64,000 nucleotides of DNA, taken from a virus. The notes below the pieces were generated by a model. It saw nothing but the letters and a program-made list of their open reading frames with translations, searched no databases and was not told the origin of the DNA. The DNA lies in the IMG/VR virus record IMGVR_UViG_3300035171_000016, positions 1-64,000 of that record; one strand, given 5' to 3'. Shown here piece by piece: positions 31,047-58,908 of this stretch (its first letter is position 1; each line of letters begins with the position of its first letter). Position numbers and translations under genes: made by a program.

Positions 31047-31062
31047 AATTTAATGTAGTTAT

Positions 31063-31090
31063 ATGTTAATGGTTAAATTTTAAAAGTCAA
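31063..31090 (-). promoter_or_regulatory. Sigma70-like promoter, leftward
   Basis: TTGACT, 16-nt spacer, TAACAT; drives nadV. Confidence 0.58.
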
Positions 31091-48200: not shown

Positions 48201-48391
48201 GTTATACTAGTTTCTATTTTATTTTTATTTAATTTGTCCCATTGTTTTAATGCGTAATATATTCTTTTAGTCGCGCTTCCAATTCTTTCTTTAGAAATAT
48301 CTCCGTGTGCATGAATTGTGCTTCTTAGTGCCCCGACAATAGCTTTTTCTAAACTTCCGCGTTTGTTTGTATTAAAATTAAAATTGTTCAT
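48188..48391 (-). CDS. hypothetical protein, 67 aa
   Basis: KRGSLEKAIVGALRSTIHAHGD... a basic helical protein, overlapping the HNH start by 13 nt. Promoter 48402-48430 lies between it and the RNase P RNA. Confidence 0.58.
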   Translation of the reverse strand: MNNFNFNTNKRGSLEKAIVGALRSTIHAHGDISKERIGSATKRIYYALKQWDKLNKNKIETSITWTI

Positions 48392-48401
48392 TTATTAATA
48401 A

Positions 48402-48430
48402 AAAATAATAGATAAATATTAAAATGTCAA
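48402..48430 (-). promoter_or_regulatory. Sigma70-like promoter, leftward
   Basis: TTGACA, 17-nt spacer, TATTTT; starts just after the 3' end of the RNase P RNA. Confidence 0.5.
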
Positions 48431-48440
48431 GAAATTAATT

Positions 48441-48691
48441 GAAACGCAGCCATAATCGCCGTTCTGTTTTATCTCTACATTTATCTCACTTTTCAGTGGC
48501 TAATCTTTATGATTAGCTGCTCCAACCTTTCCTTTACATCGGCCAGCACTAGCCTTTGGAACTTTAGGATTACTGCTAATTTGTGGTATTAATGAACGGG
48601 TGCAAAAGCAAGTACCGTTCTCCCAACATCTGCTATGCAGAGGCGAATTTCCTCAAATCATTTCTGACTTGCGTAGAGTCGCTTACGTTTC
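48441..48691 (-). ncRNA. rnpB: RNase P RNA (divergent, compact)
   Basis: 251-nt gene whose fold matches bacterial RNase P RNA. P1: GAAACG (48686-48691) with CGTTTC (48441-48446). P2: CTCTA with TAGAG. P3: AAGTCA GAAA TGATTT. Then the universal GAGGAAA, and P4: AAT-T-CGCC pairing with GGCG-ATT after ACAGAAC (48453-48467), keeping the bulged U although paired bases differ from E. coli. CR-like GTAAA...GGAGCAG, P18 CACT-GAAA-AGTG and AGATAAATG follow in the right order. The P15-P17 area is one short hairpin without a clear GGU loop. RNA cleaves 5' leaders from pre-tRNA; here it sits at the head of ~34 tRNA genes. P1 starts inside the last codons of 48683-49126. Confidence 0.87.
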
Positions 48692-49126
48692 AAAATTTAT
48701 TTTTTCTATAGTAGCGTCTGGATAAATAATTATAATTTTTTTCTTCATTTTCACAGCATACCTTTTGGTAGACCATGTTCCTGACCTAAGTTGTTCAATT
48801 TTTTCTTTAGGACAAACAATTAATAATTCAGATTCGTTAACAATATCTTTATTTCTATCTAAATACGGTTTTGACGGCAAAATTGTTTTAGCTTTACAAA
48901 AGGCTCGTTTAACCTCATTAATTGGTGGATGAATAATAATTTTTCCTAAAAATTTATTCTTATTTTGAATAAAATAAAAAACAGATAAATTATGAGCATC
49001 ATAATCAGCCCCTAAACAATCTCCATGATGAAATTCTCTACAGTCTAACGTAAACAAAAAAATAAAAAATATATTCTTTTGTTCCTGAGTCATTCCTGCC
49101 TGTGTTCCAGTAAATCCTATAACCAT
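48683..49126 (-). CDS. SLOG/YspA-like nucleotide-binding protein, 147 aa
   Basis: ATG 49126 (MVIGFTGTQAGMT) chosen over a TTG that would overlap the upstream gene. FTGTQ, FHHGDCLGADYDAH and SGTWSTKRYA are the Rossmann/SLOG motifs of YpsA/YspA-type proteins that bind nucleotide-derived ligands. Its stop lies inside the P1 helix of the RNase P RNA. Confidence 0.77.
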   Translation of the reverse strand: MVIGFTGTQAGMTQEQKNIFFIFLFTLDCREFHHGDCLGADYDAHNLSVFYFIQNKNKFLGKIIIHPPINEVKRAFCKAKTILPSKPYLDRNKDIVNESELLIVCPKEKIEQLRSGTWSTKRYAVKMKKKIIIIYPDATIEKINFET

Positions 49127-49131
49127 ATAAT

Positions 49132-49296: not shown

Positions 49297-49302
49297 ATAA
49301 AT

Positions 49303-49560: not shown

Positions 49561-49635
49561 TGGAGGGAATGGCTGGACTTTAACCAGATTATCTTCTTTA
49601 CGAAAGAAGTGCATCAACATAAATGCTTCAAACCC
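49561..49635 (-). tRNA. tRNA-Thr(CGT)
   Basis: Anticodon stem CTTCT/AGAAG, loop TTCGTAA. D-stem GCAT/ATGC. T-arm CTGG/CCAG. CCA encoded. Acceptor GGGTTTG/CATTCCC has two U-U mismatches. Confidence 0.82.
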
Positions 49636-49639
49636 GTAA

Positions 49640-49714
49640 TGGAGGGAAAGCCGGAACTTGCATCCGGTTGACAATATTACCAATATTGCGTTTTACTATA
49701 TAAACCACAATCCC
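49640..49714 (-). tRNA. tRNA-Thr(GGT)
   Basis: Anticodon stem CAATA/TATTG, loop TTGGTAA. T-stem CCGGA/TCCGG. CCA encoded. Acceptor GGGATTG/CTTTCCC again has two U-U mismatches, like its neighbour. Confidence 0.82.
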
Positions 49715-49721
49715 ATTTAAG

Positions 49722-49946
49722 CTATCCAGACATCAATCTATAATTACATCCGTATTTTTCTTTAAAAACTTCGTTTTCTTTTTTACCATGAACTTTTGGC
49801 CAGCCTTGTTCTTCCCATATAATACAATACTCGCAAATACCATGAATAATAATCAAATCACGCCCGCATTCTGGACACTGATTTTTTAGATAATATTTGC
49901 GTCCAAAAGTAAAATCTTTCATATATTTAATTATGTTAGGTAACAT
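49722..49946 (-). CDS. zinc-ribbon protein, 74 aa
   Basis: NQCPECGRDLIIIHGICEYC: CxxC ... CxxC 15 residues apart, then CNYRLMSG end. Encoded between tRNA genes with gaps of 7 and 0 nt, so surely on the same transcript. Confidence 0.66.
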   Translation of the reverse strand: MLPNIIKYMKDFTFGRKYYLKNQCPECGRDLIIIHGICEYCIIWEEQGWPKVHGKKENEVFKEKYGCNYRLMSG

Positions 49947-50025
49947 GGCGAAGTTGGCGAGAGTCGAACTCGCATAATTTCCAATTATGCACTTACTGTT
50001 TAGGAAACAGAGCCATTACAACTTC
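49946..50025 (-). tRNA. tRNA, probably Arg(CCT), lacking a D-arm
   Basis: Acceptor GAAGTTG/CAACTTC perfect, G73, CCA encoded, T-arm GCGAG/CTCGC. Hairpin CTGT-TTCCTAA-ACAG would be the anticodon arm (CCT), leaving only 7 nt where the D-arm belongs and a long variable hairpin. Alternative reading Ser(GGA) leaves no variable loop. Confidence 0.65.
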
Positions 50026-50054
50026 AAAATTAATAATAATTAAAATAACTTCCT

Positions 50055-50336
50055 TTACCATAAATGAGAAAAATCAATCTCTCTGGTTCCAACTTGAATG
50101 CCTATGCTCCCATTTAGAGTCGAAAGATGCGTGGCCGTTAGAAAAGAAAAGAAAAGAAAAGAAAAGAAAAGAAAAGAAAAGAAAAGAAATGAACTATGAT
50201 TAGGACATTCAAAATAGAATAGGTCATTCCCACTTCTTTCTCCAGTTAAGGGGTCGAACTTGATTTCCACAGAATACTCTTTTATAATAAGAGGGCTTCT
50301 GCATTTCTCACAAAAAACATCAGATTTAGTTTTCAT
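50055..50336 (-). CDS. zinc-ribbon gene with in-frame pentanucleotide repeat, 93 aa
   Basis: FCEKCRSPLIIKEYS and ECPNH give a ribbon. Then nine copies of a 5-bp unit (50141-50185) encode a LFFSF repeat, and the last 30 residues follow. In another frame the end reads NGHASFDSKWEHRH..., more protein-like, so repeat number probably sets the C-terminus. Confidence 0.6.
   Translation of the reverse strand: MKTKSDVFCEKCRSPLIIKEYSVEIKFDPLTGERSGNDLFYFECPNHSSFLFFSFLFFSFLFFSFLTATHLSTLNGSIGIQVGTREIDFSHLW
50141..50185. repeat. (GAAAA)9 microsatellite
   Basis: Nine perfect GAAAA units on the plus strand plus a partial tenth, inside the coding part of 50055-50336. Unit length is not a multiple of three. 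Confidence 0.97.
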
Positions 50337-50352
50337 ATTTTGTTTTATAAAA

Positions 50353-50444
50353 TGGCGGATACAGAAGGGGATGCTCCCTCACTGGCTGTTAAACCAGAAC
50401 ACTTTAGCAAAGTGCCGCGCCAAGCTGATATGCGCCTTGTATCC
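50353..50444 (-). tRNA. tRNA-Ser(GCT)
   Basis: Acceptor GGATACA/TGTATCC, G73, CCA encoded, anticodon stem GCACT/AGTGT with loop TTGCTAA, long variable arm CTGG/CCAG, T-stem GAGGG/CCTTC. Confidence 0.92.
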
Positions 50445-50448
50445 AAAA

Positions 50449-50533
50449 TGGTAGCCACGGGGAGATTCGGACTCCCAAACCCATCCGGTTTAAGCGGATA
50501 TGCTGTTCCAGTTCGCAATGAGGGCACGCGGCC
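50449..50533 (-). tRNA. tRNA-Leu(TAA)
   Basis: Anticodon stem ATCCG/CGGAT, loop CTTAAAC; T-arm GGGAG/CTCCC; A73; CCA encoded. The D region is ~27 nt and the variable loop only 6 nt (GGGTTT), unusual for Leu. Confidence 0.85.
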
Positions 50534-50539
50534 ATTAAA

Positions 50540-50761
50540 TTAACAAAATAAATACCTATAATATACTACCATCAAAACAAAATACAGAACTAATCCGGTA
50601 ACATATAATATTAGTTTAATTAAATCTTTAGAACTTATATTTTGTTCATAAAAATTATTTTCTTTTTCTGGTGGATATTTTGACCAATAATCTCCATCTG
50701 TTTTATACCATCCATCAAGAATGGCGCGATTACGATGTTTTTCTATCCAAGGTTCTTTCAT
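50540..50761 (-). CDS. membrane protein, 73 aa
   Basis: Polar N-terminus (KEPWIEKHRNRAILDGWYKTDG) and a C-terminal membrane helix (about 49-71, LILYVTGLVLYFVLMVVYYR). Between tRNA genes; promoter 50768-50796. Confidence 0.6.
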   Translation of the reverse strand: MKEPWIEKHRNRAILDGWYKTDGDYWSKYPPEKENNFYEQNISSKDLIKLILYVTGLVLYFVLMVVYYRYLFC

Positions 50762-50767
50762 ATAAAA

Positions 50768-50796
50768 AGTATAATACTTTTATGCTTTAAAGTCAA
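50768..50796 (-). promoter_or_regulatory. Sigma70-like promoter, leftward
   Basis: TTGACT, 17-nt spacer, TATACT; drives 50540-50761 and the tRNAs beyond it. Confidence 0.62.
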
Positions 50797-50803
50797 TACA
50801 AAT

Positions 50804-50878
50804 TGGTGCGCCTAGATGGTAACAATCCATCTTCTTTCGGGTAAGGGCCGATTGCTTCATCATTAAAGCTTTAAGCGC
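50804..50878 (-). tRNA. tRNA-Lys(CTT)
   Basis: Acceptor GCGCTTA/TAGGCGC, A73, CCA encoded, D-stem GCTT/AAGC, T-arm GATGG/CCATC. Anticodon loop CCCTTAC has C33 instead of the usual U33, which is odd. Confidence 0.78.
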
Positions 50879-50882
50879 AAAA

Positions 50883-50961
50883 TGGTAGGCGATGCAAGGT
50901 GGGAACTTGCGGCATTTTCTTTGTAATAGAAATAGTCTTAACCCGTCTGACGTAATCGCCC
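50883..50961 (-). tRNA. tRNA-Val(TAC)
   Basis: Acceptor GGGCGAT/ATCGCCT, anticodon stem TTTCT/AGAAA with loop ATTACAA, T-arm GCAAG/CTTGC, A73, CCA encoded. Confidence 0.92.
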
Positions 50962-50968
50962 ATAAAAT

Positions 50969-51046
50969 TGGTACTTCTACTATGTTACCAGCATAGATAA
51001 TTAGATTCAGAGTCTAATATAATTAAGGTATTTATATTATAGAAGT
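50969..51046 (-). tRNA. tRNA-Gln(CTG)
   Basis: Acceptor ACTTCTA/TAGAAGT perfect, anticodon stem TTAGA/TCTAA, loop CTCTGAA, T-arm CTATG/CATAG, CCA encoded. Confidence 0.92.
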
Positions 51047-51052
51047 ATGAAA

Positions 51053-51130
51053 TGGAGGACACGGGGAATTGGCTGCTCCCATAATGCTCATTACAAATAA
51101 GCTACTTTAAGCCATTTAAGCTACGAGTCC
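51053..51130 (-). tRNA. tRNA-Thr(TGT)
   Basis: Acceptor GGACTCG/CGTGTCC (one U-U), anticodon stem GCTTA/TGAGC, loop TTTGTAA, CCA encoded. T-stem GGGAG/TTCCC with an atypical loop CAGCCAA. Confidence 0.82.
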
Positions 51131-51131
51131 A

Positions 51132-51296
51132 TTAAAAATTATATTCTCTTTCGCTAATTAAAATTCCGTCTCTATAAACTTTGAACCAATCATAGGGCTG
51201 GCTTAATACAAAATTTTCACATTCAATAAAAGTATCTCTATACTCTTCTATTAAATCTAATCCTCGAATTTTGAGTTTAATTAAATATCGTTTCAT
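51132..51296 (-). CDS. hypothetical protein, 54 aa
   Basis: MKRYLIKLKIRGLDLIEEYR..., beta/alpha, ends SEREYNF 1 nt before tRNA-Thr. ATG overlaps the TGA of 51293-51469 (ATGA). Confidence 0.6.
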   Translation of the reverse strand: MKRYLIKLKIRGLDLIEEYRDTFIECENFVLSQPYDWFKVYRDGILISEREYNF

Positions 51297-51469
51297 AAAC
51301 ATCCACTATAATATTCTTCCCACATACCCTTCCAATATTTATCATTTTCTTCTTGGCATACTGGACATAAGATTGCAAAATTACTTTTATCTTCAACGTA
51401 ATTAGTATTTTGGCGACGTTTTATCGCACCTAACTTATTACAACAATCGCATCTAAGTTTTCTTTTCAT
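51293..51469 (-). CDS. zinc-ribbon protein, 58 aa
   Basis: MKRKLRCDCCNKLGAIKRRQ and LCPVCQEENDKYW: CxCC and CxxC pairs ~26 apart. Resembles short phage zinc proteins near endonucleases (CPVCQEEND). Overlaps neighbours at both ends. Confidence 0.65.
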   Translation of the reverse strand: MKRKLRCDCCNKLGAIKRRQNTNYVEDKSNFAILCPVCQEENDKYWKGMWEEYYSGCL

Positions 51470-51656
51470 TTAAATTAAATTTTGAATTAGGATTAGTATA
51501 ACACCATTCACATTGGACTTGAATTTGTATTTGTTCTCCATATTCATTATGAGTAGTTAAGTGTCCTACATACCATCCAACATTATCACAGTGAGGACAG
51601 TCTTGCCCCTCCTTATTACAATGCGAGCCATTTACAAATGTTGTTGGCTCAAACAT
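51453..51656 (-). CDS. Cys-rich protein, 67 aa
   Basis: CNKEGQDCPHCDNVGWYVGH and QCEWCYTNP: CxxC ... CxxC, DnaJ-like zinc-knuckle spacing (CPHCxxxGW). 4 nt from tRNA-Met. Confidence 0.65.
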   Translation of the reverse strand: MFEPTTFVNGSHCNKEGQDCPHCDNVGWYVGHLTTHNEYGEQIQIQVQCEWCYTNPNSKFNLNEKKT

Positions 51657-51660
51657 AAAT

Positions 51661-51737
51661 TGGTCGCTAATCTTGGAATTAAACCAAGTAACTTGTCTTT
51701 ATGAGAGACAAAGCTCAATCAGTTGCGTTTATTAGCG
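51661..51737 (-). tRNA. tRNA-Met(CAT)
   Basis: Acceptor CGCTAAT/ATTAGCG, anticodon stem TGTCT/AGACA, loop CTCATAA, T-arm CTTGG/CCAAG, A73, CCA encoded. The acceptor 5' strand is repeated just upstream (see 51724-51747). Confidence 0.9.
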
Positions 51738-51747
51738 TTTATTAGCG
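51724..51747. repeat. 10-bp tandem repeat at tRNA-Met 5' end
   Basis: GCGTTTATTA twice then GCG on the plus strand; the unit is the 5' acceptor strand of tRNA-Met plus 3 nt. The extra copy runs into the 3' end of 51742-51984. Confidence 0.85.
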
Positions 51748-51984
51748 TTTTTTAACTTCGTTTACTTTTACTTTGTAAATTTTAAATTTATTATTAGGTA
51801 ATTTAATCTTAAATGTAAATCCCTTTCCGTATGGTAGATATTTCCCATTAAAATTAATTTCTTTTATTACCCTATATTTTCTATTATAAGAACGATTTAG
51901 CTCTGCTTGTAATCCACAAAGAACTTTATCTCCGAGGGTCAAAGATATTAAATCTGGAATATATTCATTATCAAATTTATTCAT
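51742..51984 (-). CDS. hypothetical protein, 80 aa
   Basis: LTLGDKVLCGLQAELNRSYN and KGFTFKIKLPNNKFKIYKV; beta-rich and basic. Stop lies in the repeat in front of tRNA-Met. Confidence 0.58.
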   Translation of the reverse strand: MNKFDNEYIPDLISLTLGDKVLCGLQAELNRSYNRKYRVIKEINFNGKYLPYGKGFTFKIKLPNNKFKIYKVKVNEVKKR

Positions 51985-52007
51985 AATATAATTCGGTTAT
52001 AAAATAG

Positions 52008-52124
52008 TTAATGATGGCAACAGCTTCCCACCATAGTAAACATAGAGAAAATAGCAATCCATGATAAGTTAATAGATATATCTTTTAAAATCTTTTTGAT
52101 TTCGTTAAATTGTTTATCGTTCAT
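52008..52124 (-). CDS. 38-aa membrane peptide
   Basis: MNDKQFNEIKKILKDISINL, then a hydrophobic end with GSCCHH. Follows a consensus promoter (52131-52159) by 7 nt. Confidence 0.5.
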   Translation of the reverse strand: MNDKQFNEIKKILKDISINLSWIAIFSMFTMVGSCCHH

Positions 52125-52130
52125 GTATTG

Positions 52131-52159
52131 ATATTAATATAAAAAATATAAGAAGTCAA
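52131..52159 (-). promoter_or_regulatory. Sigma70-like promoter, leftward
   Basis: TTGACT, 17-nt spacer, TAATAT; drives 52008, 51742 and tRNAs beyond. Confidence 0.68.
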
Positions 52160-52167
52160 TATTAAAA

Positions 52168-52243
52168 TGGCCCGGTTTATCCGAGTCGAACGGATTTCTC
52201 CTCCTCTTCAGGGAAGATACATGACCCCACATTAGCAAACCGG
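52168..52243 (-). tRNA. tRNA-Phe(GAA)
   Basis: Acceptor CCGGTTT/AAACCGG perfect, anticodon stem CTTCC/GGAGG, loop CTGAAGA, T-arm ATCCG/CGGAT, CCA encoded. G73 instead of the usual A73. Confidence 0.88.
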
Positions 52244-52247
52244 AAAC

Positions 52248-52323
52248 TGGCGCGGGTTTCGCTTGAATTGAAATGTATCAACTCAACCAAGTTCCTTTTG
52301 TCTAACTTGGAATAGGAGCCCGC
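52248..52323 (-). ncRNA. CCA-ended three-way-junction RNA, tRNA-sized but not a tRNA
   Basis: 76 nt in line with flanking tRNAs (4- and 5-nt spacers). Terminal stem GCGGG/CCCGC and a 3' GCCA. Inside are only two hairpins: CCAAGTT/AACTTGG (7 bp, 10-nt loop) and TTGAGTTGA/TCAATTCAA (9 bp, 6-nt loop). No anticodon arm or T-loop. Confidence 0.6.
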
Positions 52324-52328
52324 ATAAA

Positions 52329-52405
52329 TGGTACAGTCGGTAGGAGTTGCACCCACATAATTCTCCTTAGAACGGAGTTCCCTAATCTATTCGAGGCACG
52401 GCTGC
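52329..52405 (-). tRNA. tRNA-Arg(TCT)
   Basis: Acceptor GCAGCCG/CGACTGT (one mismatch), anticodon stem CTCC/GGAG, loop GTTCTAA, T-arm GTGGG/CCTAC, A73, CCA encoded. Confidence 0.88.
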
Positions 52406-52412
52406 ATTAAAA

Positions 52413-52490
52413 TGGACGACCTATCTAGTCGGGAGCTAGAAAATAGACTTTCAAAGAGTCCTGTGTTTAACCCACTTACACTATAGGTCG
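52413..52490 (-). tRNA. tRNA-Gln(TTG)
   Basis: Acceptor CGACCTA/TAGGTCG perfect, D-stem GTGT/ACAC, anticodon stem GGACT/AGTCT, loop CTTTGAA, T-stem TCTAG/CTAGA, CCA encoded. Its 5' end overlaps the stop of the HNH gene by 15 nt. Confidence 0.92.
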
Positions 52491-52889
52491 AGCTTTGTGT
52501 GGACAGGTTCCGCCGTTAATTTGCCTACCACAATTACAATTAAAGCATAAAATTCGATAACCGGATGGAAAATTATTTCTAATGATATTAATTAATATAT
52601 TTCTAGAGCCGTTAAATTTTTTTCTTTCTTTGTTTCCGTTATTATTAATATGGTCAACCGTAAGAAATTGATAAGTATCTTCCCCGCAGCATTCACATTT
52701 ATTGCCATAGTGTTCTATTACAGTTTTTCTTATTTTGTTGCAATATCTTTTTGAATTTTCTTTGTAATTGGGGTCTGATTTTGAGCGACATTTCCAGCAT
52801 ACAGAGCGAAATAATGGCTCTCCATTTTCCTTATAATTTGCTATTTCCGCATCTTTTTCTTTACATATTTTACATTTTGGTCTATTCAT
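52476..52889 (-). CDS. HNH endonuclease overlapping tRNA-Gln
   Basis: 137 aa. CKICKEKDAEI and CWKCRS form an N-terminal zinc finger. HYGNKCECCGEDTYQFLTVDHI is the HNH start with DH; later SGYRILCFNCNCGRQ is the usual end. Final codons (ARPIV*) are made by the first 15 nt of tRNA-Gln, so nuclease and tRNA share sequence. This is typical of homing genes parked at tRNA loci. Confidence 0.85.
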   Translation of the reverse strand: MNRPKCKICKEKDAEIANYKENGEPLFRSVCWKCRSKSDPNYKENSKRYCNKIRKTVIEHYGNKCECCGEDTYQFLTVDHINNNGNKERKKFNGSRNILINIIRNNFPSGYRILCFNCNCGRQINGGTCPHKARPIV

Positions 52890-52956
52890 AATGGTATTTA
52901 CACTAAATCCATACCACTTTATAAAATATTAAAAAATGATTGTATATATCTATTAT

Positions 52957-53286
52957 TTACACCTTTAATAATGGAAATTTCTTAAAAATATCAGGCCAAT
53001 CTACCCTAGGGCAAAAGACTAATGCAATTTCTTGATTATCTAGGCCGGATTCGGTAACAATAATATACTCACTGCCATTATCATTCTCGAAATTCTTTAA
53101 ATATTCAAATTCATCATCTGATACCTCTACCACAACCTTCCTAAATGAATTATTAATCCATTCTTGATAAGATGCTCTGGCCGCGAACTTTAAATGCGCC
53201 ATAAGCACCCCATGAGCCGCCCCAAGGACTTTATGGCTTGGTATTGACTGTTTAATACAGATATACATTTTTGAGTAACTATTCAT
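52957..53286 (-). CDS. Peptidyl-tRNA hydrolase 2 (Pth2)-like protein
   Basis: ATG 53286 (MNSYSKMYICIKQS) chosen; the longer frame would run into tRNA-Glu. MYICIKQSIPSHKVLGAAHG corresponds to the Pth2 start (R/KxDLxxxxGKxxAQxxHA) with the His kept. EYIIVTESGLDNQEIALVF aligns with the TxxxPAGxTxT half, diverged. Pth2 releases amino acids or peptides from tRNA; location inside the tRNA array fits tRNA recycling. Confidence 0.72.
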   Translation of the reverse strand: MNSYSKMYICIKQSIPSHKVLGAAHGVLMAHLKFAARASYQEWINNSFRKVVVEVSDDEFEYLKNFENDNGSEYIIVTESGLDNQEIALVFCPRVDWPDIFKKFPLLKV

Positions 53287-53305
53287 AATTATATTGTTTA
53301 GAAAT

Positions 53306-53384
53306 TGGTATTCGTGTGGAGACTCGCACTCCATAGATATTCTGGGTGAAAACCAGACCGCTCGACGACTTTGCGCTCACGAAC
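53306..53384 (-). tRNA. tRNA-Glu(TTC)
   Basis: Acceptor GTTCGTG/CACGAAT, anticodon stem TCTGG/CCAGA, loop TTTTCAC, T-stem TGGAG/CTCCA, A73, CCA encoded. Confidence 0.9.
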
Positions 53385-53394
53385 ATTAAATTAT

Positions 53395-53682
53395 TTATTG
53401 TAATAAATGCTTATATGAATTTGTCATATCTTTTAAAATACTATTTAATTCATAATTTGTAATACTATTAAAATCTAAATTTTGTGTTTTTATTTCATAT
53501 AACCTTCCACTTGCATATCCTAATTCGGTGGCAGAAATTATTGCCTCAAAATACGTTTTTCTTTCTGCTTTAAGGGCGGCGGATAAATCATAATTATCTT
53601 TATCTCTATCTCTATCTCTATCTTCTCCACAGCCAACGGTTAATATTAAAGTAGTTAAGGCTATTATTAAGTTTAGTTTCAT
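53395..53682 (-). CDS. lipoprotein, 95 aa
   Basis: MKLNLIIALTTLILTVGCGE: signal peptide with lipobox LTVGC (Cys18), then a DRDRDRDKD run and a helical mature part. Would be anchored in a host membrane from the outside. Role unknown (possible superinfection exclusion or lysis). Confidence 0.75.
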   Translation of the reverse strand: MKLNLIIALTTLILTVGCGEDRDRDRDKDNYDLSAALKAERKTYFEAIISATELGYASGRLYEIKTQNLDFNSITNYELNSILKDMTNSYKHLLQ

Positions 53683-53693
53683 AGTTTTTTATT

Positions 53694-53927
53694 TTATTTT
53701 TTAGAAGTTTTAATATTGTATTTTTTAACTACTTGTGTTGTTTTGTAATTTATACTACAATCTTTTATATAGTTTTCAATCCATAATTCGGCCTCTACTA
53801 AAGAAATCTTAGACGCCACGCATTTACCTATATGATTAATAGATGGTTCTGAAAAATTTTTCCATATAAAGAAATCTCTAAATTGAGGAACATAATAATT
53901 ACCATCTTTGATTATTCGTAATTTCAT
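53694..53927 (-). CDS. hypothetical protein, 77 aa
   Basis: MKLRIIKDGNYYVPQFRDFF start, then KISLVEAELWIENYIKD helix. Same design as 56438-56647 (IRVLQDENHFYPQ) and as the fragment at 35509. Start overlaps 53924-54109. Confidence 0.63.
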   Translation of the reverse strand: MKLRIIKDGNYYVPQFRDFFIWKNFSEPSINHIGKCVASKISLVEAELWIENYIKDCSINYKTTQVVKKYNIKTSKK

Positions 53928-54109
53928 AGTTTTTTAATTTCATCTATTACCGTTCCGTATATTTTATATACTTTTTTACCATTTTGAGAAATTGATTCTA
54001 ATTCTCGGTTTTCTTTAAGTAATTTTAATATCTTAAATTTCATTGCATCTTGACCGTCAGAAAAACCATCGCGCCAAGATTCTTCTATGTCTTGTTTATG
54101 AATATCCAT
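53924..54109 (-). CDS. hypothetical protein, 61 aa
   Basis: QDIEESWRDGFSDGQDAMKF: a GWxDGxxDGxDA-like motif of small phage proteins, followed by helix. Overlaps the next ATG by 4 nt. Confidence 0.6.
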   Translation of the reverse strand: MDIHKQDIEESWRDGFSDGQDAMKFKILKLLKENRELESISQNGKKVYKIYGTVIDEIKKL

Positions 54110-54111
54110 AT

Positions 54112-54321
54112 TTAAAGTTTATTGATTTTTTTTATTACCGTTTTTAGTTGTGGATAGTCAAACTTCCATTTTTCACAAAAATATTTTAAAGATTCATAAT
54201 TTTTATTTCTTAAATCATAAAAAGGAGAATTAACGCTATTACCTTTATGCTGTTCATACTGGCTATCCGCCTTCTGATATGCAGACATTAAAGCATTACA
54301 TTCTTTTTTATTTAAATTCAT
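54112..54321 (-). CDS. hypothetical protein, 69 aa
   Basis: NKKECNALMSAYQKADSQYE... helical, basic C-terminus. No family recognised. 2 nt from 53924-54109. Confidence 0.58.
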   Translation of the reverse strand: MNLNKKECNALMSAYQKADSQYEQHKGNSVNSPFYDLRNKNYESLKYFCEKWKFDYPQLKTVIKKINKL

Positions 54322-54339
54322 ATTTATTTAAATTCATAT

Positions 54340-54519
54340 TTATAATTTAATTCCATCAAAATCAACAGAATTCAATTCAAACTCTTCTGGATTAGATTTA
54401 CATTCTTTCGCCTTTTCAAAGGCTAGTTTTTCTAAATCTTCTATAGTTAATTCAACTCTGCAAGTATCGCAGCCAGTCCAGTTTTTTCGCTTCATCCATA
54501 CTGTAGTTTTAATTGTCAT
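54340..54519 (-). CDS. hypothetical protein, 59 aa
   Basis: MTIKTTVWMKRKNWTGCDTC start with two Cys, then LEKLAFEKAKECKSNPEEF. First gene behind promoter 54526-54554. Confidence 0.6.
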   Translation of the reverse strand: MTIKTTVWMKRKNWTGCDTCRVELTIEDLEKLAFEKAKECKSNPEEFELNSVDFDGIKL

Positions 54520-54525
54520 AGTTTT

Positions 54526-54554
54526 ATGATAATATAAAAAATTATAAAAGTCAA
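54526..54554 (-). promoter_or_regulatory. Sigma70-like promoter, leftward
   Basis: TTGACT, 17-nt spacer, TATCAT; drives 54340 to 53395. Confidence 0.63.
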
Positions 54555-54560
54555 TAAAAA

Positions 54561-54636
54561 TGGTAGCCTATGTTGGCTCTGCCCCAACCACCTTTCCCTT
54601 ATCAAGAGATTGCTCTGCTAAATGAGCTAATAGGCC
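54561..54636 (-). tRNA. tRNA-Ile(GAT)
   Basis: Acceptor GGCCTAT/ATAGGCT, D-stem GCTC/GAGC, anticodon loop TTGATAA, T-arm GTTGG/CCAAC, A73, CCA encoded. Confidence 0.92.
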
Positions 54637-54643
54637 ATTAAAT

Positions 54644-54717
54644 TGGTATTCCTAAACGGTTATGCTCCGTTTTCTTGGATTTGAGAAACCCACGAGATAC
54701 TATTACTCCATAGGAAC
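54644..54717 (-). tRNA. tRNA-Glu(CTC)
   Basis: Acceptor GTTCCTA/TAGGAAT, D-stem GAG/CTC, anticodon stem TGGGT/ATCCA, loop TTCTCAA, T-arm AACGG/CCGTT, CCA encoded. Confidence 0.9.
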
Positions 54718-54724
54718 ATTAAAT

Positions 54725-54803
54725 TGGTGCGTTCGGAGGCTTGGGATTCCTCGTTCAGTCGCTTAAAAGGCGATGTTTCTTAACCCATTTGAATTACGAA
54801 CGC
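54725..54803 (-). tRNA. tRNA-Lys(TTT)
   Basis: Acceptor GCGTTCG/CGAACGC perfect, anticodon stem TCGC/GCGA, loop CTTTTAA, T-stem GAGG/CCTC, A73, CCA encoded. Confidence 0.88.
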
Positions 54804-54829
54804 ATAAAATTAATTATCCGATATTTTTA

Positions 54830-54878
54830 TTCGCCTCGGGGACGCCGAAAGGCAATTACGCTTTCTCGGCAGGGCGAA
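54830..54878 (-). ncRNA. 49-nt double hairpin between tRNAs
   Basis: TTCGCC/GGCGAA closes a long hairpin GCCG-A-GAAAG / CTTTC-GGC with 8-nt loop. No tRNA features. Strongly GC-rich for this genome. Could be a processing signal or a small stable RNA. Confidence 0.5.
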
Positions 54879-54881
54879 AAT

Positions 54882-54970
54882 TGGCTGGGGCAACAGGGAT
54901 TAAACCTGTAGGTGAGATTTCTCTCGGAAGTTTAACAAACTTCTGCGTCTATCAATTCCGCCACACCCCA
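54882..54970 (-). tRNA. tRNA-Asn(GTT) on a Leu-type scaffold
   Basis: Acceptor TGGGGTG/TGCCCCA, G73, CCA encoded, anticodon stem GAAGT/ACTTC with loop TTGTTAA (GTT). The D-arm GGCGGAATTGATAGACGC and a long variable arm are Leu hallmarks, while anticodon and G73 are Asn identity elements. Confidence 0.85.
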
Positions 54971-55053
54971 ACAAATCGTTTCTCCGCCATCCTACACAGG
55001 ATACTTTATTTTTTCTAAGCAGAAGCGATATTCTGCGCGGGTACTAAATTAAA
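54971..55053 (-). ncRNA. structured spacer RNA (three-way junction)
   Basis: CCGC/GCGG encloses hairpins GCAGAA/TTCTGC and ATCCT/AGGAT. No tRNA features, no CCA. Lies between tRNA-Asn and another structured element. Confidence 0.42.
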
Positions 55054-55054
55054 T

Positions 55055-55143
55055 TGTTGTAAGTGTTCAATACAGTTCAGACCGGAGCAGCGGGAATAAG
55101 ATGCCGCCGCATTCTCTTCACCCTATGACCTAAGTTACAACAA
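55055..55143 (-). ncRNA. 89-nt RNA with 9-bp terminal helix
   Basis: TTGTTGTAA pairs with TTACAACAA. Inside, GCGGC/GCTGC and ATGC/GCAT hairpins. The acceptor-like helix recalls a tRNA, but there is no T-arm and no CCA. 2 nt from tRNA-Gly. Confidence 0.5.
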
Positions 55144-55145
55144 AA

Positions 55146-55220
55146 TGGAGCACTTGGAGAATTTTGAAATCTCGACGTTCACGTTGGAAGCGTGACACTC
55201 TGCCTCTGAGTTACAAGTGC
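55146..55220 (-). tRNA. tRNA-Gly(TCC)
   Basis: Acceptor GCACTTG/CAAGTGC, D-stem ACTC/GAGT, anticodon stem TCACG/CGTGA, loop CTTCCAA, U73, CCA encoded. Confidence 0.93.
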
Positions 55221-55227
55221 ATTAAAT

Positions 55228-55318
55228 TGGGTGCAGAAAGTGGAGTTAAACCACACATAGCGAAAGTTAATTCGCCTGCCTTATGAGGGCAGTTAGCGTC
55301 TCGCGGCTTGTTTCTGCA
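55228..55318 (-). tRNA. tRNA with CAT anticodon and long variable arm
   Basis: Acceptor TGCAGAA/TTCTGCA, anticodon stem CTGCC/GGCAG, loop CTCATAA, long variable arm GCGAA/TTCGC, T-stem GTGG/CCAC, C73, CCA encoded. Met and Ile2 tRNAs are class I, so a class II CAT tRNA is anomalous; amino acid uncertain. Confidence 0.82.
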
Positions 55319-55330
55319 ATTCTAATGAAA

Positions 55331-55415
55331 TGGTCGGGATTGGGGCGTTCGCATCCCCACGGATTTCTCACCAGTTCCCAAAACTGGCCCGGAACTACTT
55401 ACGGTCTAAATCCCG
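55331..55415 (-). tRNA. tRNA-Pro(TGG)
   Basis: Acceptor CGGGATT/AATCCCG, anticodon stem CCAGT/ACTGG, loop TTTGGGA, T-stem GGGG/CCCC, A73, CCA encoded; variable region ~11 nt, longer than usual. Confidence 0.88.
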
Positions 55416-55423
55416 ATAAAATA

Positions 55424-55648
55424 TTACTTTAAAACTTTTTCAAAATGCGGCCATTCATAATCTCCTTCTGGCCAAGGAGTTCTTTCTATTCCTAGATTTT
55501 CATTTAATTTTATCTTTCCGATAAAACAATTAACGTGTTTTGCGGCCTTTCTAGCTTTTGCGATACTATCAAAAATACCAACAAACTCCCATTCTAATTC
55601 TTTATTGATAATATCAGGAACATATCCTACTAAATATAATTGTTTCAT
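55424..55648 (-). CDS. hypothetical protein, 74 aa
   Basis: KQLYLVGYVPDIINKELEWEF, then IAKARKAAKHVNCFIGKI and WPEGDYEWPHFEKVLK. Resembles short DUF7336-type phage proteins; role unknown. 8 nt from tRNA-Pro. Confidence 0.62.
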   Translation of the reverse strand: MKQLYLVGYVPDIINKELEWEFVGIFDSIAKARKAAKHVNCFIGKIKLNENLGIERTPWPEGDYEWPHFEKVLK

Positions 55649-55654
55649 AGTTTT

Positions 55655-55683
55655 ATGATAATACTAAAATTTTGCTTTGTCAA
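55655..55683 (-). promoter_or_regulatory. Sigma70-like promoter, leftward
   Basis: TTGACA, 17-nt spacer, TATCAT; drives 55424-55648 and the tRNA block 55415-54561. Confidence 0.68.
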
Positions 55684-55690
55684 CTAAAAT

Positions 55691-55768
55691 TGGAAGCCAG
55701 CCGCAGTAACGCTCTGCGTAAACAAGAATTTTGCAGATTCCGGGGTTAATCTTACTCCCTCGCTGGCT
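55691..55768 (-). tRNA. tRNA-Cys(GCA)
   Basis: Acceptor AGCCAGC/GCTGGCT, D-stem GGG/CCC, anticodon stem GGAAT/ATTCT, loop CTGCAAA, T-arm CGCAG/CTGCG, U73, CCA encoded. Confidence 0.93.
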
Positions 55769-55777
55769 ATTTAAAGC

Positions 55778-55899
55778 TTAAATCGTAGAACCAACAAATA
55801 AAGCCAAACCAATTGGAATCCATAATAGATGTCCAACACTGAATGCGGCCAAGACAAAACAAACAATTGCACCGATTTTAAGTAGTATTTTATAATCCA
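55778..55899 (-). pseudogene. small membrane-protein gene with probable 1-nt deletion
   Basis: ATG 55899 gives MDYKILLKIGAIV, and the adjacent frame gives CFVLAAFSVGHLLWIPIGLA and on, a perfect membrane helix. One missing base near 55863 separates them. An in-frame alternative would be a 24-aa peptide from TTG at 55852. Confidence 0.45.
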
Positions 55900-55943
55900 T
55901 ACCTTATTATATACTTTTATCTCAAAAATTACTATTAAGTTTT

Positions 55944-56246
55944 CTACTTACTGTTTTTAAAAAATGCTTTTATAAAACCAAAAATAAAAATAGCCATGAA
56001 CAAAACTATTAACATTTTTAATGGAAAAGCTATAAATATATCAAATATAGAACAGTTACTTCCAAAACCAAAGGTATTCCATAAAAAGCTACCAATATAA
56101 TAAAACGAAACAACAATACCAGAAAATAAACACAATCCAATTATAATTTTTAATGGAGCTATTAATAATTCAGTCCCTCCACTAGATTCATTTATTAGTT
56201 TTATAGCCTTGTCTTGCTGAAACTTATTTTGTGGTACAAATATCAT
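55944..56246 (-). CDS. membrane protein, 100 aa
   Basis: Two long hydrophobic helices (about 28-52 and 70-94) with a polar N-terminus (QNKFQQDKAIKLINESSGG). No family recognised. Confidence 0.62.
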   Translation of the reverse strand: MIFVPQNKFQQDKAIKLINESSGGTELLIAPLKIIIGLCLFSGIVVSFYYIGSFLWNTFGFGSNCSIFDIFIAFPLKMLIVLFMAIFIFGFIKAFFKNSK

Positions 56247-56249
56247 ATA

Positions 56250-56441
56250 TTATTTTTTAATTTTTAAATTCATAGGAAATGCTGGAACTGAACTTGGCCA
56301 ATTATTCATTATAGAATCGCTAAAAATATTTCTCATACTAAAGCTATCCGGCAAACTTCTGTAACACGTTTGCATATTTTTCATCCATTGGTCAATTTTA
56401 CAATCAAAATAAAAATCAAAATATAATTGAGATTCTTTCAT
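56250..56441 (-). CDS. hypothetical protein, 63 aa
   Basis: KESQLYFDFYFDCKIDQWMKN... aromatic N-terminus, ends MNLKIKK. ATG overlaps the TGA of 56438-56647. Confidence 0.55.
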   Translation of the reverse strand: MKESQLYFDFYFDCKIDQWMKNMQTCYRSLPDSFSMRNIFSDSIMNNWPSSVPAFPMNLKIKK

Positions 56442-56647
56442 TTAATCTCTCCGGTATAAACAATTTTTCTTTGCTTTTTGTTCTTAGAAAATAACCTATC
56501 CGACATATAATCAAGACTATTTTGTATAGTATTAAAATAAACTTTATATCCATCTTCTGTAAAGAAAGATTGAAAATAAGAATCAATTTTACACTGTGGA
56601 TAAAAATGATTTTCGTCTTGCAATACTCTAATCTTGTATTTTTTCAT
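56438..56647 (-). CDS. hypothetical protein, 69 aa
   Basis: MKKYKIRVLQDENHFYPQCK start, related in layout to 53694-53927. Basic C-terminus. Overlaps both neighbours by 4 nt. Confidence 0.6.
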   Translation of the reverse strand: MKKYKIRVLQDENHFYPQCKIDSYFQSFFTEDGYKVYFNTIQNSLDYMSDRLFSKNKKQRKIVYTGEIK

Positions 56648-56847
56648 TTTTGGTTACTCTTACTGATTTTTTTAGCTTTAACAACTCTTACTTGATTATT
56701 TACCATTACTCTACCTACATTTTGGCCATCCATAGATACAGTATAATATCTATTGTCCGGCAAGTCAAGAGCCTTCCTTACTTTTTCATCGGCAGCTAAT
56801 GGATTTAAACAGTATTCTTTAAATAGGTCTGGCGGCATTTGTTTCAT
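56644..56847 (-). CDS. hypothetical protein, 67 aa
   Basis: MPPDLFKEYCLNPLAADEKVRKALDL, RYYTVSMDGQNVGRVMV; no family recognised. Coupled to 56438-56647. Confidence 0.57.
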   Translation of the reverse strand: MKQMPPDLFKEYCLNPLAADEKVRKALDLPDNRYYTVSMDGQNVGRVMVNNQVRVVKAKKISKSNQK

Positions 56848-56848
56848 A

Positions 56849-57103
56849 TTATCTAGTATCTTGTAATGGAATTATCTCAGTAATTTTAATAGCAACTTTA
56901 TTTTTAATTAATTTATCTGCTATTTTCTTTGTAAAATAAAATTCTACACCAGCCTTTACAAGTCGCCTTCCACTTTCACCTAATAAGCCGGTAAGAAAAA
57001 TAGCTTCGGGGTCAATGATTTTAATCCTAACTGCATCTGGAACATAAGCTAGTTCTTTTAATAACTCTGGAACCACCATGAATTGTAGTTTAATTTTTTT
57101 CAT
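56849..57103 (-). CDS. hypothetical protein, 84 aa
   Basis: KLQFMVVPELLKELAYVPDAVRIK and ARRLVKAGVEFYFTKKIADK-like helix/strand pattern; 16 nt after tRNA-Ser(TGA), so it is co-transcribed with tRNAs. Confidence 0.58.
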   Translation of the reverse strand: MKKIKLQFMVVPELLKELAYVPDAVRIKIIDPEAIFLTGLLGESGRRLVKAGVEFYFTKKIADKLIKNKVAIKITEIIPLQDTR

Positions 57104-57119
57104 AAGATTTTATTTAAAA

Positions 57120-57214
57120 TGGCGGATAGTGCATCGAATCGAACGCGCACCGGCCTTTCGGCGCGGTCAACTTTTCAAGAGTTGTGGGGCAAACCAATAT
57201 CCCACCTACTATCC
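57120..57214 (-). tRNA. tRNA-Ser(TGA)
   Basis: Acceptor GGATAGT/ACTATCC, anticodon stem CAACT/AGTTG, loop CTTGAAA, long variable arm, G73, CCA encoded. The T-stem has a bulged A. Confidence 0.9.
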
Positions 57215-57218
57215 ATAA

Positions 57219-57313
57219 AATTTATTTAGATTATAATTTCTTAGACAATAGACTAAGTATGTTTTCTTACATCAAAAGACTTTTCAAAGTATTTAGTCTT
57301 TTATAATTTCTAA
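57219..57313 (-). ncRNA. structured spacer RNA flanked by 12-bp direct repeat
   Basis: TTATAATTTCT occurs at 57231 and 57301 (plus strand). Between them, on the minus strand, AGACTAA/TTAGTCT (7 bp) can enclose ACTTT/AAAGT and ATGT/ACAT hairpins. No tRNA features, no CCA. Confidence 0.42.
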
Positions 57314-57316
57314 AAA

Positions 57317-57393
57317 TGGCGGGACTAGCCGGAATCGAACCGAGCTTTCTTACCGTGACAGGGTAAGCGATGAAACCACTCTCTTTTAATCCC
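57317..57393 (-). tRNA. tRNA-Asp(GTC)
   Basis: Acceptor GGGATTA/TAGTCCC, anticodon stem TTACC/GGTAA, loop CTGTCAC, G73, CCA encoded. Confidence 0.92.
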
Positions 57394-57403
57394 ATAAATT
57401 GAA

Positions 57404-57571
57404 TTACCAATAAACTTTATTACCAATCCGAGTCTTGTCGGTATTGGCAAAGCGTTCTATTAGGCGAGCGCATCCTATTCAATTCTATCGGCAGAATAAA
57501 CTGCTTACAATGATATTGAATTAAGTCCTATATAATATATGAGAACTATTTAATTATGGTGTTATTGGTAA
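57404..57571 (-). ncRNA. 168-nt multi-branched RNA of unknown class
   Basis: Perfect 10-bp terminal helix TTACCAATAA/TTATTGGTAA. Inside are four arms: AATTAA..GTTCT/AGGAC..TTAATT; CAATATC/GATAGAATTG carrying hairpin GCAG/CTGC; GCG/CGC; and CCAAT-CCG/CGG-ATTGG. No tRNA parts, no open reading frame. Between tRNA-Asp and tRNA-Leu(TAG). Confidence 0.6.
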
Positions 57572-57573
57572 AA

Positions 57574-57657
57574 TGGTCGCCCTGACAGGACTTCAACCTG
57601 CAAAACCACCCGTTCTAAGCGGGCAAGCTGTGGCGTTCGCTACAAGGTCACAGGGCG
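57574..57657 (-). tRNA. tRNA-Leu(TAG)
   Basis: Acceptor CGCCCTG/CAGGGCG, anticodon stem CCCG/CGGG, loop CTTAGAA, T-stem GCAGG/CCTGT, A73, CCA. Long D region (~26 nt, with GCGAAC..ACAGC) and 6-nt variable loop, like the TAA and CAA isoacceptors. Confidence 0.88.
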
Positions 57658-57661
57658 GAAA

Positions 57662-57746
57662 TGGTCGCATCGCGGAGACTTCAACTCCGAAAACTCTACG
57701 TTTTGAATGTAGTGGCTGTAGCAATTCGCGCTTATGTCACGATGCG
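57662..57746 (-). tRNA. tRNA-Leu(CAA)
   Basis: Acceptor CGCATCG/CGATGCG, anticodon stem CTAC/GTAG, loop TTCAAAA, T-arm CGGAG/CTCCG, A73, CCA. Same unusual long D region and short variable loop. Confidence 0.88.
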
Positions 57747-57750
57747 GAAA

Positions 57751-57829
57751 TGGTATCCCATAGAAGCTGGCGACTTCTGACCAATCCCTTATAAAGAGAA
57801 CGCTCTTGAGCCATGTGAGCTAATGGGAT
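57751..57829 (-). tRNA. tRNA-Ile(TAT)
   Basis: Acceptor ATCCCAT/ATGGGAT, D-stem GCTC/GAGC, anticodon loop TTTATAA, T-arm AGAAG/CTTCT, A73, CCA encoded. Confidence 0.92.
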
Positions 57830-57834
57830 ATAAA

Positions 57835-57911
57835 TGGTGCATCATAAAAGAGTTAAACTTTTATCTAACTGGTTCGTATCCAGTTGCTTTATTCAATTAA
57901 GCTAATGATGC
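57835..57911 (-). tRNA. tRNA-Arg(ACG)
   Basis: Acceptor GCATCAT/ATGATGC, D-stem GCTT/AAGC, anticodon stem ACTGG/CCAGT, loop ATACGAA, T-arm AAAAG/CTTTT, CCA. A34 would need editing to inosine (TadA) to read all CGN codons used. Confidence 0.92.
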
Positions 57912-57923
57912 GTTAAATTTAAT

Positions 57924-58085
57924 TTATAATAAACCTTTTATTTTTTCTATCAAACTACACTTACATTCTTTCTTGCTCTTTCGGCAATATCTACAAAAAA
58001 ATTCTCGTACATATTCACAGTCGGAACACCAACCGTGGCAACATTTACTGTTTCTTTGTCCTATATCTAATTTATATTTTTTCAT
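57924..58085 (-). CDS. Cys-rich protein, 53 aa
   Basis: ATG 58085 (MKKYKLDIGQRNSKCCHGWC) chosen; the longer frame enters tRNA-His. CCHGWCSDC, CRYC and CKC give seven or more Cys, probably two zinc sites. Confidence 0.65.
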   Translation of the reverse strand: MKKYKLDIGQRNSKCCHGWCSDCEYVREFFCRYCRKSKKECKCSLIEKIKGLL

Positions 58086-58089
58086 TAAA

Positions 58090-58165
58090 TGGTCAGGTGG
58101 CCGGGTGTCGAGCCCGGTTAGCAAGTTTCACACACTTGGAGATTAGCCGTTATCCTACGCACCTG
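58090..58165 (-). tRNA. tRNA-His(GTG)
   Basis: Acceptor CAGGTG/CACCTG, D-stem GGAT/ATCT, anticodon stem CAAGT/ACTTG, loop GTGTGAA, T-arm CCGGG/CCCGG, CCA. A73 and no visible extra G-1 opposite C73, unlike bacterial His tRNAs. Confidence 0.9.
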
Positions 58166-58175
58166 TTAAAATAAC

Positions 58176-58240
58176 AATCGGTATGCTTCCATTACACTAA
58201 GGTTTCGCTCCTATTTGGACTTGAACCAATACCTCCGATT
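58176..58240 (-). ncRNA. tRNA-like RNA in circularly permuted order
   Basis: Reading the RNA 5' to 3': AATCGG, TTGG-TTCAAGT-CCAA (a T-arm), TAGG-loop-CCTTA, TA, GTGT-AATGGAA-GCAT (a D-arm with GG), A, CCGATT. AATCGG and CCGATT pair as an anticodon stem. All parts are spaced as in tRNA, but the 3' half precedes the 5' half. The joined acceptor is only 3-4 bp and there is no CCA. Confidence 0.5.
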
Positions 58241-58244
58241 TAGA

Positions 58245-58333
58245 TGGTGGCGCGGTGAAAGTAACGCTCTTTTTGCTTAACTTCTCAACTATTTTAGCAA
58301 AGGTTTTACAGACCCTCGTTGAGGACACCGGCC
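58245..58333 (-). tRNA. tRNA-Tyr(GTA)
   Basis: Anticodon stem AGGGT/ACCTT, loop CTGTAAA; long variable arm; T-loop AGCGTTA; acceptor GGC-CGGTG/CACCG-C-GCC; A73; CCA. The D region is only ~10 nt (CCTC-AAC-GAGG at most), so the D-arm is reduced or missing. Confidence 0.83.
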
Positions 58334-58334
58334 A

Positions 58335-58556
58335 TTAAATTTTACTTATAAATCTTTTATTAAAATATAAATTATCTTTTTTTAATTTAATAAACTCTTC
58401 AATTTTATTTGCAAGATTAACTAGTTTATCATCTTTAAGATATTTGAAACATCCGTTTTTAATTAAGACTCCTATAATATCTTCTCCTTCTTGTGCTGAT
58501 AGGTTATCAAAAATAAGACCTATTGATATTTGTTCGTTTTTTGTTAGTTGTTTCAT
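58335..58556 (-). CDS. hypothetical protein, 73 aa, between tRNAs
   Basis: ATG 58556 (MKQLTKNEQISIGLIFDNLS); a longer frame would be made of tRNA-Ala and ncRNA sequence. Helical, Lys-rich end. 1 nt from tRNA-Tyr and 3 nt from tRNA-Ala. Confidence 0.63.
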   Translation of the reverse strand: MKQLTKNEQISIGLIFDNLSAQEGEDIIGVLIKNGCFKYLKDDKLVNLANKIEEFIKLKKDNLYFNKRFISKI

Positions 58557-58559
58557 AAA

Positions 58560-58637
58560 TGGTGGAGAATTTGGGATTCTAACCCAACTGGATTCGCATT
58601 GCAAGTGCGACGACCACAACAAGCAGTCCCATTCCCC
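58560..58637 (-). tRNA. tRNA-Ala(TGC)
   Basis: Acceptor GGGGAAT/ATTCTCC, anticodon stem TCGCA/TGCGA, loop CTTGCAA, T-arm TTGGG/CCCAA, A73, CCA encoded. Pos. 3 G opposite U70 is the family identity wobble G3-U70. Confidence 0.93.
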
Positions 58638-58647
58638 GTAAATTAAA

Positions 58648-58743
58648 AACCGCAATAGAAAGATTTTAGTTATACTCATAAATGAGTCGCGGTTAAATTT
58701 TGCTCCGAGGGCCGCGTGAATACGTCTATTCAGCCTAGGGAGC
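58648..58743 (-). ncRNA. two-domain structured RNA between tRNA-Ala and tRNA-Trp
   Basis: First domain (58702-58743): GCTCC/GGAGC closing GGC/GCC and TGAATA-GACG-TATTCA. Second (58648-58694): AACCGC/GCGGTT around ACTCAT/ATGAGT, followed by T-rich sequence. No tRNA features. Confidence 0.52.
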
Positions 58744-58750
58744 GGTAAGA

Positions 58751-58827
58751 TGGCACAACGAATGGGAGTCGAACCCATCTATTACCGTTTTGGAGGCGGC
58801 GGCTTCACTCAACTTAGCTATCGTTGT
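58751..58827 (-). tRNA. tRNA-Trp(CCA)
   Basis: Acceptor ACAACGA/TCGTTGT, anticodon stem GCCGC/ACGGT (one C-A), loop CTCCAAA, T-arm ATGGG/CCCAT, G73 as expected for Trp, CCA encoded. Confidence 0.9.
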
Positions 58828-58834
58828 ATTAAAT

Positions 58835-58908
58835 TGGAGCATCATAACGGTATTGAACCATTTTATCTAACTTGGCAAGCTAGGGCATTACATTTATGCT
58901 AATGATGC
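58835..58908 (-). tRNA. tRNA-Gly(GCC)
   Basis: Acceptor GCATCAT/ATGATGC, D-stem GCAT/ATGC, anticodon stem CTAGC/GTTAG, loop TTGCCAA, U73, CCA encoded. First tRNA after the leader RNA. Confidence 0.93.

Follow-up and report, generated by a model that had tools for sequence, protein, structure and literature searches.

Sequence analysis identified a 255-nt element on the minus strand of the IMG/VR virus record IMGVR_UViG_3300035171_000016 as a compact, phage-encoded ribonuclease P (RNase P) RNA. The window analyzed comprised bases 1-64000 of this 147,760-base record, which represents a tailed phage with genes for terminase, tape measure, DnaB-like helicase, UvsX-like recombinase, DNA polymerase and ribonucleotide reductase. 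A first-pass annotation had placed an RNase P RNA in the gap at 48441-48691. The strand and the location were confirmed, while the extent had to be revised to 48439-48693, since P1 was two pairs longer on each side. The first 11 nt of the RNA overlap the end of the open reading frame at 48683-49144.

The identification was obtained with an independent covariance model, R1, which was built from 12 RNase P RNAs of the phage type II compact set (a set defined in this analysis), with the window excluded, and which described helices P4, P5, P7 and P15. The window RNA was found by R1 at 48453-48654 on the minus strand with 58.3 bits (E=1.1e-10), and the runner-up across the 147,760-base record scored 10.1 bits. 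In the alignment of the 12 phage RNAs, 99.6% of the cells in the four helices were paired and both sides had changed in 12 of 20 pairs. The covariation score was 0.567 versus 0.159 in shuffles, none of 500 shuffles scored as high, and pairing fell to 41% when the partner was slid by one column. Full-length bacterial or host-like RNase P RNAs scored 29-48 bits with R1, so the window RNA is nearer to the phage group. The features that define the type II set were found in it, namely NUGGGAGA...ACCAC around one hairpin, a compact P15-P17 and an R1 score above that of bacterial class A, and it was among the most divergent RNAs and still the most distant member of the set. A chance fold or bacterial contamination of the contig might be suspected from the AT-rich window and from three pattern-scan matches (L003, L005 and L073) that resemble host or prophage sequence. 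This is refuted in practice by the R1 result; the terminase, tape measure, helicase, UvsX and DNA polymerase genes of the record, in which no 16S rRNA was found, also speak against it.

Rfam evidence taken alone was suggestive only. When 47800-49300 was searched by cmscan with all Rfam families, the sole match was the archaeal model RF00373 (RNaseP_arch), which covered exactly 48441-48691 on the minus strand and the complete model (1-288) with 18.3 bits (E=0.009). It was the only match in the whole record (E=2.1e-4), and a covariance hit at relaxed threshold, which had been proposed beforehand as a check, was thus obtained. The bacterial class A model RF00010 gave no match in the record even at E<=10. 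The RNAfold z-score of the window RNA was -2.56, which is weak support by itself. BLAST of the RNA against GenBank phages returned no match, and a terminase search for close relatives of the phage returned a single 5-kb contig at 61% identity.

The mapped elements of the RNA are listed in Table 1. The CR I, CR IV and ACAGAA...UUA blocks (CR, conserved region) of the RNase P superfamily were present in the correct order, and the blocks GAGGAAA, AGATAAATG and ACAGAA, together with the P4 helix with its bulged U, were mapped as the first-pass annotation had described them. P3 was formed by CAAGUC/GAUUUG, the P6 5' strand came after P5, and P15, P16 and P17 were UCC/GGA, UUCC/GGAA and GGC/GCC, respectively. 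A specificity domain with CR II/III was not found in the window RNA in either the R1 alignment or the helix mapping. The GGU loop of P15 had been reported as not evident, with GGAGCAG (48523-48517) read as CR V. This reading was rejected, as R1 and the type II relatives set CR V at 48576-48562, and GGAGCAG was assigned to the P15 3' strand and the start of J15/2. Because the R1 alignment sets the P15 3' strand at GGUUGGA, the GGU motif is in fact present, within AGGUUGGA opposite P15.

Table 1. Positions of the RNase P RNA, its mapped elements and the upstream tRNA array in the window
Feature	Position	Strand	Basis
Compact RNase P RNA, P1 to P1', 255 nt	48439..48693	-	R1 58.3 bits; RF00373 18.3 bits; mapped helices
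P1 3' strand CGUUUCAA, partner 48693-48686 (UUGAAACG)	48439..48446	-	mapped helices
P2 5' strand CUCUAC, partner GUAGAG 48478-48473	48673..48678	-	mapped helices; closes catalytic domain, P4 crosses it
CR I, GAGGAAA	48648..48654	-	mapped
P4 5' strand AAU.U.CGCC, bulged U; partner GGCG.AUU 48460-48454	48642..48649	-	mapped; covariation across phages
P5 5' strand CUGC, partner GCAG 48576-48573	48637..48640	-	R1 alignment, mapped helices
Single 27-nt hairpin replacing specificity domain, inside short P7	48594..48620	-	mapped
CR V, GCAGUAAUCCUAAAG: P5 3' strand, J5/15 with AA pair, P15 5' strand UCC	48562..48576	-	R1 alignment
P6 pseudoknot 3' strand UGCU (loop 17), partner AGCA 48634-48631	48545..48548	-	mapped helices
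GGU motif and P15 3' strand, AGGUUGGA	48521..48528	-	R1 alignment, mapped
Two J15/2 hairpins, CUAAUC/GAUUAG and CACU GAAA AGUG	48487..48516	-	recur in phage DLP6 and locus L045
CR IV, AGAUAAAUG	48478..48486	-	mapped
ACAGAA block preceding P4 3' strand	48462..48467	-	mapped
Upstream tRNA array: 12 ARAGORN tRNAs and one Rfam-only tRNA (49564-49635)	49564..58908	-	

Pairing was also compared among phages. Of 19 RNAs, all or almost all formed each of P2, P4, P5, P6 and P15, with 9-14 different helices per element and with pairing beyond that of 2,000 shuffles, although except for P4 the strands were chosen by eye, a choice that favours pairing. P4 was kept in relatives from other phages through changes on both strands, as the first-pass annotation required. 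The P2, P4 and P5 strands of the window RNA paired mutually better than with the 3' strands of nearly all other phages, the closest exceptions being one full match for P5 and one 5/6 match for P2.

Besides the choice of strands, several observations weigh against the assignment. The 18.3 bits lie far under the RF00373 gathering score of 84 bits, and the window RNA therefore escapes standard annotation. P4 pairs at 7/8 positions, with a U-C mismatch at the fifth pair of the inner segment, a pair that is intact in nearly all relatives. P6 is only 4 bp long, against 5-7 bp in relatives, P7 has only 3 bp around its single hairpin, and J5/15 has U instead of C before the AA pair. Promoter-like sites around the gene occurred at chance level only. 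The low Rfam score, the lost P4 pair and the divergent sequence would fit a host rnpB that had been captured and was decaying as a relic. We regard such a relic as very unlikely, because a decaying RNA would lose its pairing, whereas the helices are preserved through paired changes in the window RNA and its relatives, and both J15/2 hairpins recur in the cultured Stenotrophomonas phage DLP6 and at the phage locus L045.

The relatives were collected by a pattern scan of IMG/VR, in which the 3' portion of the RNase P core was sought on viral contigs. This gave 62 stretches, and GAGGAAANTC was located 80-325 nt upstream in 38 of these. After removal of the three host- or prophage-like matches and one duplicate, 34 separate loci encoding RNase P-like RNAs were retained, on contigs of up to 527 kb. 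No 16S rRNA was found in any of 36 records, and 13 records had a match to Terminase_6N, the one terminase family tried. Three forms of the RNA were distinguished: class-A-like RNAs, most of which exceeded the Rfam cut-off, compact type II RNAs, and a mini type without specificity domain, which measured 147-156 nt from P1 to P1' (L028, L040, L046, L071 and L075). To our knowledge, several phage RNAs of this length are among the smallest RNase P RNAs known. The Rfam RNase P cut-off was reached by none of the type II RNAs scanned and, among mini or short forms, only by L063 and L053; scoring against RF00373 covered a single type II RNA from a phage, L020, which reached 54 bits. RNase P RNA genes, thought at first pass to be uncommon in phages, are thus fairly widespread, and since nearly all compact forms are missed by Rfam cut-offs, there is a systematic blind spot in phage annotation.

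Searches beyond these contigs were also conducted. The exact type II signature occurred in 9 stretches of 84,980 species genomes, none of which proved to be RNase P RNA on inspection and with R1, though variants are possible, and R1 detected one ordinary class A gene in 150 Pseudomonadota genomes. The patterns GAGGAAA...GGNGCAR...ANATGAATG and GAGGAAA...CATAG...AGATRAATG were unproductive, and BLAST matches in Agrobacterium phage Atu_ph04, Prevotella phage Lak-C1 and LR756500 were rejected as RNase P RNAs. A repeated short element ending CTTAAGTGGTARGGCTACGG was observed on many contigs of one Pontiellaceae metagenome-assembled genome (JAOZMR; L077-L081, L083 and L085); it matched the RNase P pattern by chance only.

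The tRNA context was then evaluated. The first-pass annotation had put the RNA at the head of a tRNA array, but it is the tail, 3' of the tRNAs, because minus-strand transcription puts the tRNAs upstream. In the direction of transcription, about 870 nt separate the last tRNA from the RNA downstream of it. All 13 ARAGORN tRNAs of the window encode CCA, with which GGU pairs in bacterial RNase P. The proposed link between phage RNase P RNA and tRNAs was upheld, as at least three same-strand tRNAs lay within 4 kb at 24 of the 34 loci. In other phages the RNA lies within the array, and at L063, L057 and L059 it is 0-5 nt from tRNAs. At L063, the RNA (482-672) sits between tRNAs at 408-482 and 674-749, and the gap to a neighbouring tRNA was 2-5 nt at L059 and L057. 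In arrays of this kind, it is predicted that when RNase P cleaves the tRNA that follows, the 3' end of the ribozyme RNA is created as well. Other RNA genes were also noted at these loci. GOLLD RNA shared the tRNA-rich region with the phage RNase P RNA at L020:2460-2944 (144.8 bits) and L058:5070-5488 (212.3 bits), transfer-messenger RNA (tmRNA) genes were located nearby at L086:820-1093, L021:6-363, L024:1822-2187 and L065:9797-10131, with a permuted one in DLP6, and several phages combined RNase P RNA, tmRNA and tRNAs. One phage contig had a tRNA-Sec match (RF01852, 48.5 bits) within its tRNA array (L035:835-921).

Based on these results, the window RNA is probably an active ribozyme of compact type that trims phage pre-tRNAs with host RnpA. 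The analysis shows homology, a conserved core, covariation, the presence of GGU and CCA, and no phage RnpA gene in the searched records; expression, catalysis, the use of host RnpA and a benefit to the phage are inferred. RnpA (PF00825) was found in none of 39 viral records including that of the window, nor in DLP6, although the records are possibly fragments, and the simplest reading would be that host RnpA is borrowed. The RNA would be transcribed during infection, either jointly with the phage tRNA genes or close to them, and would bind host RnpA through its conserved core. Its catalytic domain is retained and its specificity domain is cut down to one hairpin. Its GGU would pair with the CCA that the phage pre-tRNAs encode, and their 5' leaders would be cleaved. 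In this way, the processing of some 13 phage tRNAs could be freed from limited or declining host RNase P.

Two other roles were considered. In bacterial RNase P the protein-binding parts are P2-P3-P4 and CR IV. These are the best preserved parts here, which, along with the RnpA not found in the phage records checked, would suit a decoy that sequesters host RnpA, or acts as a competitor for substrates, and so weakens host tRNA maturation without cleaving. Such a decoy seems improbable, because features that would be superfluous for it are retained and covary (the P4 bulged U, the J5/15 AA and P15 with GGU), and adjacency to phage tRNAs suggests use rather than sabotage. In bacterial RNase P the T loop is recognized by the specificity domain; with this domain lost, it could be argued that substrate choice must differ, and that an active RNase P acts mainly on other RNAs of phage or host, such as mRNAs or non-standard tRNAs. 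The 10 of 34 loci with fewer than three same-strand tRNAs within 4 kb would agree with this. However, tRNA genes adjoin the other 24 loci, and GGU and the encoded CCA in the window phage point to pre-tRNA, so other main targets have an equally small chance in our judgment. Beyond the trimming of phage pre-tRNAs, we tentatively propose, as somewhat less than an even prospect, that a separate lineage of minimal RNase P ribozymes without specificity domain (about 147 nt at the lower end) evolved in large tailed phages, which inside tRNA operons may excise themselves by cutting the 5' end of the next tRNA, borrow host RnpA and process phage tRNAs with a substrate preference unlike that of the host enzyme.

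A cultured carrier, Stenotrophomonas phage vB_SmaS-DLP_6 (DLP6), was reached via BLAST with a mini RNA. Its RNase P RNA (KU682439.2, 105815-106006, plus strand; R1 63.3 bits, E=1e-11) occupies an unannotated gap between AAY80_165 and tRNA-Arg. It contains P1 UUUGCAAGCC/GGCUUGCAAA, P5 CUGG/CCAG, a 7-bp P6, GGU, the GTGGGAG motif and two J15/2 hairpins. The compact plan, GGU, the GTGGGAG motif, the two J15/2 hairpins and the association with a tRNA array are shared with the window RNA, whereas the sequence is diverged, tRNAs lie on both flanks, and BLAST with the window RNA gives no match. The DLP6 paper reported 30 tRNAs and did not mention RNase P. As DLP6 is cultured, the function of its RNase P RNA is testable at once. 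A nicotinamide phosphoribosyltransferase gene was observed near the DLP6 tRNA array; the window also has one, which with a ribose-phosphate pyrophosphokinase-like gene forms a phage NAD-salvage pair (29583-32355, minus strand). A phiEco32-type COOH-NH2 ligase (PF14395, 110 bits) was located at 26447-27337 on the minus strand of the window.

RNase P RNA is usually regarded as a cellular housekeeping ribozyme, and it appears that many large phages carry tRNA processing besides tRNAs. The stripped phage forms provide a natural experiment on the dispensable parts of the ribozyme. RNase P RNA as a molecule is already known; the compact viral form without specificity domain would be new. Earlier reports of phages that encode an RNase P RNA were not found in the open-access literature, with preprints and subscription papers outside the scope and priority thus unsettled. 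A survey of huge phages listed many translation proteins and did not mention RNase P.

Compared with bacterial class A RNA (RF00010), the window RNA shares the order of CR I, IV and V, P1-P5, the P6 pseudoknot, P15 with GGU, P16/P17 and the P4 bulged U, but P7-P14 with CR II/III are cut to one hairpin and two small J15/2 hairpins are present. The archaeal RNA (RF00373) is its best Rfam match over the whole model, yet the window RNA has no specificity domain and scores below the curated level. Type T RNase P RNA of Thermoproteaceae has likewise retained the catalytic domain and lost the specificity domain; it is archaeal, differs in its remaining elements and was not the best clan match of the window RNA in cmscan. 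Candidate phyla radiation (CPR) bacteria have diverged RNase P RNAs with lost helices that are missed at standard thresholds, but these are bacterial chromosomal genes, not phage genes (PMC8172020). Theta ribozymes of gut phages lie next to phage tRNAs and have a proposed role in tRNA maturation; unlike the window RNA, they are self-cleaving, are proposed to act at the tRNA 3' trailer and have an unrelated fold, and 5' processing was assigned to cellular RNase P (PMC10879173).
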